From: Dyella marensis
GTDB taxonomy: Bacteria > Pseudomonadota > Gammaproteobacteria > Xanthomonadales > Rhodanobacteraceae
Direction of reading: 5' to 3'
Assembly (NCBI RefSeq): GCF_900112865.1
Contig: NZ_FONH01000008.1
Coordinates: 62,001 to 126,000, forward strand
DNA length: 64,000 nucleotides
Shown here: positions 21,076 to 57,143 of the stretch, piece after piece
How positions within the stretch are numbered: the stretch's first letter is position 1
Layout of the letters: every line of letters starts with the position of its first letter
Translations under genes and position numbers: made by a program
Notes under the pieces: model-generated
What the model saw: only the letters and a program-made list of their open reading frames with translations
What the model was told of the DNA's origin: nothing
Databases searched by the model: none

Positions 21076-21471
21076 ATGAGCGAGATTCCCGGCGATCTGA
21101 AATTCCTCAAGTCCCATGAGTGGGCTCGCGCCGAAGACAACGGCAACGTCCGCGTGGGCATCTCCGACCACGCCCAGGGCCAGCTCGGCGACGTGGTGTA
21201 TGTGGAGCTGCCGGAGATCGGCGCCAGCGTGCAGGTCGGCCACGGCGTGGCGACGGTGGAATCGGTCAAGGCCGCTTCCGACATCTACACGCCGGTGTCC
21301 GGCGAGATCGTCGAGGTCAACGAGGCGCTGGCCGATTCGCCCGAGACCATCAACGAAGACGCCTACGGCGAAGGCTGGCTGTTCGTGGTCAAGCCCAGCG
21401 ATCGCGCCGAGCTCGGCGAACTGCTCGACGCGGATGCCTACGCCGAGCAGCTGGAGAACGAAGACCACTGA
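21076..21471 (+). CDS. gcvH: Glycine cleavage system H protein
   Basis: The 131-residue protein is the lipoyl carrier that shuttles the aminomethyl group between P, T and L proteins. The lipoylated lysine lies in [16 protein letters not shown] (near residue 65). It starts with [15 protein letters not shown] and ends in the acidic helix usual for GcvH. A strong hairpin follows 26 bases after the stop. Confidence 0.97.
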
Positions 21472-21827: not shown

Positions 21828-21851
21828 AGCCGTATGGACGTCCAAACGAAT
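21828..21851 (+). promoter_or_regulatory. Tandem met-box-like octamers upstream of metJ-H1 (candidate MetJ operator)
   Basis: Two adjacent octamers, AGCCGTAT (21828-21835) and GGACGTCC (21836-21843), each match six of eight bases of the known met box AGACGTCT; a third octamer, AAACGAAT, is weaker. MetJ binds two or more tandem eight-base boxes. GGACGTCCAAAC is shared with the metX promoter at 55880-55891, and this copy lies before a MetJ-like gene, so autoregulation is the natural reading. TTATAG at 21824-21829 overlaps and could be a -10 box. Confidence 0.6.
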
Positions 21852-21941: not shown

Positions 21942-21968
21942 TTGACACCAGAAATAATCGGGAATAGT
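21942..21968 (+). promoter_or_regulatory. Candidate promoter of metJ-H1
   Basis: A consensus TTGACA (21942-21947) lies 52 bases before the ATG. The best -10 candidate is AATAGT (21963-21968, spacing 15), which is short of ideal. The box is clear, the -10 is not. Confidence 0.35.
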
Positions 21969-21998
21969 TTTCGCACCAGATAACGGGGAACAGGCGTT

Positions 21999-22553
21999 AT
22001 GGCACCATCGAAGTTCATCAAGCCGTATGTGGAACACGGCGAGAAGGCCGGAGCGGTACGCAAGATCACGGTCTCTATTCCGGTCCACGTTTTACGGCTG
22101 CTTTCGGACGAACGTACCCGTCGTCAAGTGAACAATTTGAGGCACGCCACCAACAGCGATCTGCTGGTTGAGGCGTTCCTCCACGCTTTTACTGGGCAAC
22201 CACTGCCAACTGATGAGGAGCTGAGACGAACTATGGCCACTGCCAAGAAAGCTGCGAAGAAACCGGCCGCCAAGAAGGCTGCCAAGAAGACCACCGCGAA
22301 GAAGGCCGCTACCAAGCGTCCGGTCGCGAAGAAGCCGGCCGCCAAGAAGGCCGTGAAGAAGACCGCGAAGAAGGCCGCCGCGCGCAAGCGTCCGGCCGCT
22401 GCCAAGAAGGCGTCCGCCAAGAAGGTCGCCGTCAAGAAGGTTGCCAAGAAGGCCGCCAAGAAGGTTGCCAAGAAGCGCACCGTGAAGAAGGCTGCCGCTG
22501 CCAAGGTGGTCAAGGCCACCAAGACGGCCAAGCCCAAGGCTGCCAAGAAGTAA
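21999..22553 (+). CDS. metJ: MetJ methionine repressor fused to a histone H1-like Lys/Ala tail
   Basis: The 184-residue protein has two unlike halves. Residues 1-77 are a MetJ ribbon-helix-helix domain: [10 protein letters not shown], the DNA-contacting strand RKITVSIPV (21-29), [17 protein letters not shown] and [13 protein letters not shown], which forms much of the SAM pocket; compared with E. coli MetJ as I remember it, about 42 of 49 core positions agree. The usual MetJ C-terminus (about 30 residues ending in a Trp-containing helix) is absent. Residues 79-184 instead are repeats of AKKAAKKPA type, as in bacterial histone H1-like and AlgP-like proteins. Met79 (ATG at 22233) could also be an internal start giving a separate H1-like protein; GAGGAG lies 12 bases before it. 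Met-box-like octamers lie upstream and at the metX operon. Expected role: SAM-dependent repression of methionine genes, possibly with non-specific DNA binding by the tail. Confidence 0.88.
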
Positions 22554-55863: not shown

Positions 55864-55895
55864 GGATGTTTAGACGTTTGGACGTCCAAACAGTT
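55864..55895 (+). promoter_or_regulatory. Tandem met-box-like octamers (candidate MetJ operator) at the metX promoter
   Basis: Four consecutive octamers at eight-base spacing, GGATGTTT, AGACGTTT, GGACGTCC and AAACAGTT, match the met box AGACGTCT at five, seven, six and four of eight positions. The last overlaps the -35 box. GTTTGGACGTCCAAAC (55876-55891) is also a perfect 16-base palindrome. The array directly before a methionine biosynthesis operon, together with a MetJ-like gene at 22 kb, makes repression by MetJ the best reading. Confidence 0.75.
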
Positions 55896-55923
55896 GACAC
55901 CGCCGCTCGCGCGCCGATACAGT
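55894..55923 (+). promoter_or_regulatory. Sigma-70 promoter of metX-metB-hom
   Basis: Consensus TTGACA (55894-55899) and TACAGT (55918-55923) are 18 bases apart and lie just before the SAM riboswitch, so the leader would begin near 55930. The -35 overlaps the last met-box-like octamer. Confidence 0.7.
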
Positions 55924-55931
55924 TCGCGTCA

Positions 55932-56043
55932 CTCATCGAGACCGGCTGAGGGACAGGCCCTTTGAAGCCGGGGCAACCTGCGGGATAGCCCGCCACGGTG
56001 CCAACTCCTGCGGAGGCGCAATCAGGCGCCGCCGAGAGATGGG
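55932..56043 (+). ncRNA. SAM-I (S-box) riboswitch in the metX leader
   Basis: The 112-base element has the S-box core: P1 arms CTCATC (55932-55937) and GATGGG (56038-56043), the conserved GAGGGACAGGCCC, GAAGCCGGGGCAACC and CGGTGCCAACTCC segments, and paired P2-P4 regions. It binds S-adenosylmethionine. Downstream, 56044-56123 lacks a clear intrinsic terminator with a T-run, so control could be at translation or by Rho. Confidence 0.94.
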
Positions 56044-56123
56044 CGAGCTTCGTGCCGGCACTGCGCCGGCTCCGTGGCGACCTCTCTCCGATCCGCAGGG
56101 CGATGCCCGAACCGGAGAGCGAG

Positions 56124-57143
56124 ATGTCCAGCCAGCCCCAGCCCGTCACCAGCGCAAGCGCCCCCTGTACCGTGGCGGGTGCTGTCCGCGTGGACCTCAC
56201 GACGCAGCGCAGCTCCCGCCGCATCCGTCTCTCGCCCAAGTACGGCAGCCGTCCCTGCGAAGTGGACGTGCGCTACCTGTGGTGCGGCGCGCCCGACGCG
56301 CCCACCGTGATCGTGCAGGGCGGCATCTCCGCCAACCGCGAAGTGGTCGCCCTGGACGACGAAGCCACGCCCGGCTGGTGGCAGGAAGCGGTCGGCGCGG
56401 GCCGCCCGATCGACCTCGACCGCTACCGCGTGCTGTGCATCGACTGGCTCACCCCGGCCGAGCTCGACGGCGCCACCGCCGTCTCCAGCGAGGATCAGGC
56501 CGACGCCCTGGCCGCCCTGGTCGAGGCGCTGGGCATCGCCCGCGTGCATGCCTTCATCGGTTCGTCCTACGGCGCCATGGCCGGCCTGGCCTTCGCCGCG
56601 CGCCATCCCTACGCGCTGGACCGCCTGGTGCTGCTGGCCGGCGCGCACCGTCCGCATCCGCTGGCCACCGCGCAGCGCGCCGTGCAGCGCGGCATCGTGC
56701 GGCTGGGCGTGGAGACCGGCCAGCCGGAGCAGGCGCTGTCGCTGGCACGCCAATTGGCCATGACCACCTACCGCGGCAGCGAGGAGTTCTCGCGCCGCTT
56801 CACCGCCGCGCCGGAATTCCGCGAAGGGCGCTTCCATTTCCCGGTCGAGGATTACCTGGTGCACCAGGGCCGCCGCTTCGTCGAGCGTTTCGACGTGGAG
56901 CGCTTCCTGGCGCTGTCCGAATCGATCGACCTGCACGACGTGACGCCGGAGCGCATCGCCGCGCCCGCCACGCTGATCGGCTTCCCGTCCGACCGCCTGG
57001 TGCCGCTGTCCGACCTGTGCGAGCTGCAGCGCCGCCTGCATGGCCCGGCCACGCTCGAAGTGCTCGAGTCGCCGTACGGCCACGACGCCTTCCTCAAGGA
57101 AACCCATCGCCTCGCGCCGCTGCTGCGCGACGCGCTGGCCTGA
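56124..57143 (+). CDS. metX: Homoserine O-succinyl/acetyltransferase MetX
   Basis: The 339-residue alpha/beta-fold enzyme acylates homoserine as the first committed step of methionine synthesis. It has QGGISANREVV, the nucleophile elbow FIGSSYGAMAGLAFA, the acid in FPSDRLVPLSD and the catalytic His in YGHDAFLKE. Xanthomonadales MetX proteins of this length are reported to use succinyl-CoA; acetyl-CoA cannot be ruled out here. The ATG at 56124 follows GGAGAG; an in-frame ATG at 56103 is less likely. The SAM-I riboswitch and met boxes lie upstream. metB and hom follow. Confidence 0.93.
   Translation: MSSQPQPVTSASAPCTVAGAVRVDLTTQRSSRRIRLSPKYGSRPCEVDVRYLWCGAPDAPTVIVQGGISANREVVALDDEATPGWWQEAVGAGRPIDLDRYRVLCIDWLTPAELDGATAVSSEDQADALAALVEALGIARVHAFIGSSYGAMAGLAFAARHPYALDRLVLLAGAHRPHPLATAQRAVQRGIVRLGVETGQPEQALSLARQLAMTTYRGSEEFSRRFTAAPEFREGRFHFPVEDYLVHQGRRFVERFDVERFLALSESIDLHDVTPERIAAPATLIGFPSDRLVPLSDLCELQRRLHGPATLEVLESPYGHDAFLKETHRLAPLLRDALA

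Follow-up and report, generated by a model that had tools for sequence, protein, structure and literature searches.

The Dyella marensis window, the whole 64,000-nucleotide stretch of DNA that was analyzed, carries an open reading frame at positions 21999 to 22553 (forward strand) in which a MetJ repressor core is joined to a histone H1-like tail. This one frame likely yields two proteins: MetJ with an H1-like arm, and a free H1-like protein that begins at Met79. In the same reading, the leader of free H1-like genes in sister families is a remnant of metJ. What the sequence itself shows is the fusion, the silent-site constraint before the joint, the conserved ATG and Shine-Dalgarno (SD) sequence, the homology of the leaders, the shared synteny, and the presence of Met boxes.

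The frame encodes 184 amino acids and is kept across the Rhodanobacteraceae. Codons 1-78 (21999 to 22232, forward strand) form the MetJ core, the ribbon-helix-helix repressor part. Residues 5-82 match the Pfam MetJ family PF01340 (E 3.2e-37, 126.8 bits against a cut-off of 25), and the protein exceeds the NCBIfam MetJ cut-off as well (131.7 against 110 bits). Sequence comparison with PDB chains of E. coli MetJ gives E 3.7e-32. The alignment to E. coli 1CMA stops at residue 84; the E. coli protein is 104 residues long in its PDB entry. The fused gene is the sole MetJ match in the D. marensis genome, so the separate MetJ that the preliminary description had proposed to look for does not accompany it. 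That description was right about an uninterrupted MetJ-tail frame, which is borne out by the open frame, the profile matches, and 142 complete loci. The fusion it described stands, while its boundary after residue 77 moves by one codon, with the joint at Met79 and the core at 1-78.

The 106 residues of the tail (79-184) are 39% lysine and 35% alanine, with a pI of 12.0. The fused protein scores below cut-off against the HC2 profile PF07382 (22.7 bits, cut-off 40) and against NF038053 (17 bits, cut-off 80); the H1-like label is based on composition and orthology, not on a profile score. The AlphaFold model of the fusion, with a mean pLDDT of 53.7, is uninformative. A second Lys/Ala-rich protein of 183 amino acids is encoded elsewhere in the D. 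marensis genome (G000:C43:4300-4851, also L268:1301-1852). Its N-terminus differs (MSIDTDFD...), and similar genes are found in the family members L270-L272.

Named relatives of the MetJ core are in Dyella, Luteibacter, Rhodanobacter, Frateuria, Dokdonella, and Tahibacter, all Rhodanobacteraceae. A MetJ match (E of 0.001 or lower) is present in 227 of 233 genomes of this family and in 26 of 26 genera; 226 pass the curated cut-off, and the six genomes without a match are 79-93% complete. Eight genomes were examined in this connection, and they showed no intact joint, only tail pieces or contig edges. The MetJ-tail junction is complete in 142 family loci, some of them from genomes present in two collections. 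Every one of these loci has a Lys/Ala-rich tail (35-310 amino acids, median 99), with a K+A fraction of at least 0.51 (median 0.74), and the frame between core and tail is unbroken in all 142. One family locus, L144 from a metagenome-assembled genome, is interrupted at position 42 by a nonsense codon. The junction recurs in 125 distinct core sequences, which rules out the frameshift or assembly join near 22230 that had been raised as a caveat. The conservation across Xanthomonadales that was to be checked is thus found in this family, in its 227 MetJ-bearing genomes and 142 complete tailed loci.

Among 299 genomes sampled at the level of the order, 96 have MetJ: 76 from Rhodanobacteraceae and 20 from the families numbered f12, f9, and f8. 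The 20 proteins from outside Rhodanobacteraceae are tailless and 79-97 amino acids long, with start codons chosen by the analyst. A class-level sample of 369 genomes added three with MetJ outside the order, with frames of 112-118 amino acids. Since the tail is found in the family loci and MetJ is tailless elsewhere, the fusion is a Rhodanobacteraceae trait. The tailless MetJ proteins of the order are also short, so a short C-terminus is not peculiar to the fusion, and the C-terminal segment of E. coli MetJ does not define the MetJ family. The C-terminal MetJ helix is missing, as the preliminary description had it, but for the same reason the tail did not take its place.

In 44 divergent sequences of the family, pN over core codons 1-59 is 0.13 and pS is 0.66, a pN/pS of 0.20. 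By this measure the MetJ half is under purifying selection, and it looks functional as a MetJ. The fused protein resembles E. coli MetJ (PF01340; 1CMA) in its core sequence, its ribbon-helix-helix region, and the invariant Lys22 and Thr24; a further likeness is that both metX and metJ have tandem operators of the AGACGTCT type. The fused protein differs in carrying an H1-like tail of 35-310 amino acids in place of a short C-terminus, and in the proposed second start. Rhodanobacter-type cores (L120, L127, L143, and others) have DLRTHRQ, DLRTYRQ, or DLRTERQ in place of DERTRRQ; the changed residue is one that in E. coli MetJ presumably lies close to the SAM site.

Both sets of operator boxes named in the preliminary description are genuine. 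Three tandem 8-bp Met boxes (AGCCGTAT GGACGTCC AAACGAAT) lie upstream of metJ at 21828 to 21851 (forward strand). A tandem box scoring at least 11 of 16 is found within 400 nt 5' of metJ in 108 of 124 loci, mostly near -170, where shuffles lead one to expect 5.6. The boxes are weak, scoring only 8-9, in four Luteibacter-type loci (L070-L073) and in L121. A TTGACA-N17-TAGTTT sequence at 21942-21970, just 5' of metJ, was read by eye and falls below the rule of the promoter scan.

The other set belongs to the promoter of metX and precedes a SAM-I riboswitch. Three tandem Met boxes at 55864 to 55887 (forward strand) end 6 nt 5' of a TTGACA (55894-55899). The SAM-I aptamer (RF00162, 80.1 bits, cut-off 44.4) follows at 55930 to 56045 on the same strand, between the boxes and metX. 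MetX (55998 to 57143, forward strand; start codon provisional) would be the first product of the target operon and matches NF006449 with 371.7 bits (cut-off 296). The metX boxes score 13-16 of 16 in 21 of 21 family genomes, out of 23 searched, and mostly adjoin TTGACA; none of 100 shuffles per genome scores as high. Nothing above chance was found at metX in nine genomes of other families (0/9). The riboswitch was present in all 11 metX loci scanned, 8 in the family and 3 outside, and so only the Met boxes track the presence of MetJ. Two SAM sensors, the boxes and then the riboswitch, thus stand in series before metX in the window and family-wide.

Across the D. marensis genome, two-box matches with up to three mismatches number 17; the reversed pattern yields 10, and the excess is weak. 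Four loci have two mismatches. One of these precedes the gene of a TonB-dependent receptor whose nearest resemblance, below cut-off, is to B12 receptors; another precedes a cysJ-like gene. Strong tandem boxes are seen at G000:C28:556390-556413 and G000:C33:6761-6776.

Turning to the joint, a nested frame from ATG79 (22233 to 22553, forward strand) encodes the 106-residue H1-like protein that would be the short product. An ATG is present here in 148 of 149 readable loci: in the same place in 130, and one codon earlier, after a deletion, in 18. The sole exception, L028 in genome G011, has GTC GTG at the joint and ordinary codons. The tail of L028 is poorer in lysine, and a 457-residue Lys/Ala-rich frame lies elsewhere in that genome (L310). 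Loss of the nested start through the presence of another H1-like gene was considered for G011 and is unsupported, as other members also have extra Lys/Ala-rich genes.

The 48 nt before this ATG (codons 63-78, 22185 to 22232, forward strand) form the proposed initiation region, an element conserved at the nucleotide level. The silent-site difference pS falls from 0.66 upstream to 0.22 over codons 63-77 and to 0.08 over codons 64-68. In 70 divergent sequences, the codons ACT, GGG, CCA, CCA, GAG, GAG, and AGA before ATG79 are near-invariant. Six genes of the window seldom use several of the codons in this element, with shares of 0.002 for AGA, 0.027 for GCT, and 0.031 for ACT and CCA within their codon families. 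This codon choice is not found in the tailless MetJ of other families, including the GC-rich f12.

Within the element, GAGGAG (22215 to 22220, forward strand) is the proposed internal SD, located 12 nt 5' of ATG79 when counted from AGGAG. Its anti-SD energy is -7.8 kcal/mol, compared with -5.4 kcal/mol at the metJ start, and the internal site is the stronger in 67 of 68 sequences. Only 0.9% of control windows elsewhere in the core reach the internal median. The spacing of 12 nt compares with 6-8 nt in most free H1-like genes. The mRNA around ATG79 has a folding energy of -6.2 kcal/mol, compared with -12.5 kcal/mol for synonymous shuffles, and so is less structured than they are; this is a weak point, since folding is similarly weak against shuffles at codons 31, 41, 75, 83, and 87. 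A scan detected no internal sigma-70 promoter for a short product at the joint, and no Rfam family scored above cut-off there. A CTGATGAG..CGAA string, which we take to resemble a hammerhead core, was rejected as a ribozyme because it has no stem II and is absent from the free genes. Taken from sequence, the tail is probably also made as a separate protein starting at Met79. The preliminary description had raised the case in which a protein from Met79 is the only one made; a start at Met79 is indeed favored, but together with the long product rather than as the sole one.

In addition to the fusions, a search of the junction DNA against the 299 genomes of the order found matches in families without MetJ, namely f3 (E ~1e-18), f2 (probably Xanthomonadaceae), and f6. 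The matches extend 5' past the ATG, which in these families is the start of a free H1-like protein. A set of 53 distinct leaders was assembled (49 from f2, 3 from f3, and 1 from f6). It leaves out the Rhodanobacteraceae sequences, one spurious frame, and the H1-like loci L193 and L259 (f4) and L246 (f8), the last three of which have neither leader block. The first block, CTGGGC, occurs in 52 of 53 leaders (52 of 56 if the dropped loci are counted); shuffles give ~0.05 per leader, and the block frequently lies outside the match used to fetch the leader. The second, the GAGGAG block of the type GACGAGGAG, occurs in 53 of 53 (53 of 56 on the wider count), a count that is partly selected because the leaders were collected by searching with the element. 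Spacing between CTGGGC and GACGAGGAG varies among the free genes. When compared with the f1 leader, 28 of the 53 leaders beat all 500 shuffles and 25 do not; four are weak, with 27-62 of 500 shuffles equally good.

To judge from their sequences, the leaders are mostly untranslated in the H1-like frame. An in-frame stop lies within 100 nt in 30 of 53, and the second block is in frame with the H1-like ATG in 15 of 53. A common RNA fold is unsupported in the six leaders compared (covariation term -0.03). Many f2 leaders (L181-L255) have a GC-rich inverted repeat just 5' of CTGGGC, ~40-100 nt before the ATG, which is possibly a 5' hairpin.

Synteny likewise connects the fused gene with the free ones. 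In the window, gcvH (21076 to 21471, forward strand; NCBIfam GcvH above cut-off) lies upstream of the fused gene, as it does in 131 of 152 family loci. Upstream of free H1-like genes, it is found on the same strand in 11 of the 13 loci with at least 1.2 kb of upstream sequence, and in all three f3 loci. In genome G059 (f4), the H1-like gene of L193 begins 472 nt after gcvH and is without the MetJ-derived leader. Since L193 has the pair and not the leader, the pair is perhaps older than the fusion, and the gcvH-H1 neighborhood may predate it.

In a few sister-family leaders the end of MetJ, TGQ..PTDEEL, can still be read. The L181 leader encodes TGQSEPTDEELT before its ATG, and PTDEELT is kept in L183, L187, and L188. 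The corresponding peptide is present in the fused MetJ and in the tailless MetJ of f12, and a close version is found in E. coli MetJ. As the peptide is old in MetJ, the most likely source of the sister-family leader is the coding sequence of metJ. The leaders begin to show their resemblance at about codon 63, which is also where the frozen stretch has its 5' limit. A protein-level search with the remnant alone was not significant (best E 0.17), and outside the leader, the sequence between gcvH and the H1-like gene in the sister families gave nothing convincing as a MetJ remnant.

From these features we infer that both proteins are produced, that the arm binds DNA, and that events took the following order. 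In an ancestor of Rhodanobacteraceae and its sister families, metJ would have been joined in frame to the H1-like gene beside gcvH. The sister families would then have lost MetJ, with the last metJ codons staying on as an untranslated leader in front of the free H1-like gene. In Rhodanobacteraceae, ribosomes starting at 21999 would make a SAM-dependent repressor of methionine genes with a basic H1-like arm, and those starting at ATG79 (22233), by way of the element at 22185-22232 inside metJ, would make the H1-like protein alone. The arm putatively adds non-specific DNA binding to MetJ, as suggested by its composition and by H1-like domains such as that of AlgP. The effects that the preliminary description attached to such an arm, namely higher MetJ affinity, DNA bridging, or a link between methionine state and nucleoid structure, are hypothetical. 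If both products come from the metJ mRNA, the Met boxes would, speculatively, put the H1-like protein under SAM control. A further proposal is tentative and, in our judgment, somewhat doubtful: that the choice of start sets the ratio of repressor to nucleoid protein, with SAM controlling both, and that after the loss of MetJ the end of its coding sequence became a working leader.

Other readings account for parts of these data. The fusion may be the only product, the tail being an arm of MetJ and the joint being conserved as, e.g., a translational pause for folding of the core. The frame, never broken in the 142 complete loci, would fit this, and rare codons are what a pause site should have. 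A pause, however, requires no ATG, no SD, and no fixed silent sequence. Homologous nucleotides stay in the sister-family leaders, with in-frame stops in 30 of 53 and the in-frame position in 15 of 53, and we consider a fusion-only gene unlikely. That the short H1-like protein alone matters, with the MetJ part either an upstream frame in decay or a leader with a regulatory role, is very improbable. The stronger internal SD (67 of 68 sequences) and the loss of MetJ in the sister families point that way, but a decaying frame does not agree with a core pN/pS of 0.20 or with metX Met boxes that follow the presence of MetJ (21/21 vs. 0/9).

The element could also be a regulatory site in DNA or RNA, such as a promoter, a protein-binding site, or an RNA switch, that does not mainly bind ribosomes. 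Its ~48 constrained nucleotides are more than an SD requires, and its two blocks, CTGGGC and GACGAGGAG, are spaced variably in the free genes. Against this are the lack of any Rfam family at cut-off, of a sigma-70 match, and of a supported fold in the six leaders, and we regard such a site as quite improbable; the nested gene would follow from it all the same. The least probable reading, in our view hardly credible, reverses the history, so that the leader belonged to an ancient H1-like gene onto which metJ was later fused. The f4 genome with an H1-like gene near gcvH and no such leader (L193) is in its favor. The leader peptide, however, is old MetJ sequence, close in E. coli and the same in tailless MetJ, and for a leader to spell it by chance is implausible. 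The two-protein reading, with the leader as a metJ remnant, is the one preferred here.

The free H1-like proteins (HC2, PF07382; 'Histone H1' of Xanthomonas) share with the fused tail a Lys/Ala-rich composition, the position near gcvH, and the same start. Their genes differ from the fused gene in that the leader of the latter is metJ coding sequence, with no untranslated counterpart. The available text of PMC8578834 describes Xanthomonas XC_1234 as a 156-residue 'Histone H1'; as a guess, it is the ortholog. For Pseudomonas aeruginosa, the available part of PMC9239181 presents AlgP (AlgR3) as a protein of regulator type whose C-terminal domain consists of H1-like repeats. Its N-terminus is given there as a predicted helical domain, unlike MetJ, and that part of the paper makes no mention of a nested start.

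According to the accessible portion of Leyn et al. 2014 (PMC4239095), the four Xanthomonadales genomes studied have SamR and no MetJ, and SamR was proposed as the regulator in this order. Replacement of MetJ by SamR, as that portion presents it, fits the loss of MetJ in the sister families. MetJ is not reported from the order there, whereas both tailed and tailless MetJ are found here. No paper on a MetJ-H1 protein was found in the open-access literature among the matches listed. The domains and the type of gene overlap are known, and the combination and its history were not found described.

For Xanthomonadales, the picture of methionine control is corrected to one in which MetJ and its operators are present in some families and absent from others. 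If the two-protein reading is true, Rhodanobacteraceae would possess a natural one-component repressor fused, family-wide, to a histone-like arm that is also supplied free. It would make testable the idea that SAM, and with it the metabolic state, acts directly on nucleoid proteins. It would also make testable the idea that a stretch of coding DNA can persist as a regulatory leader after the protein it encoded is gone.
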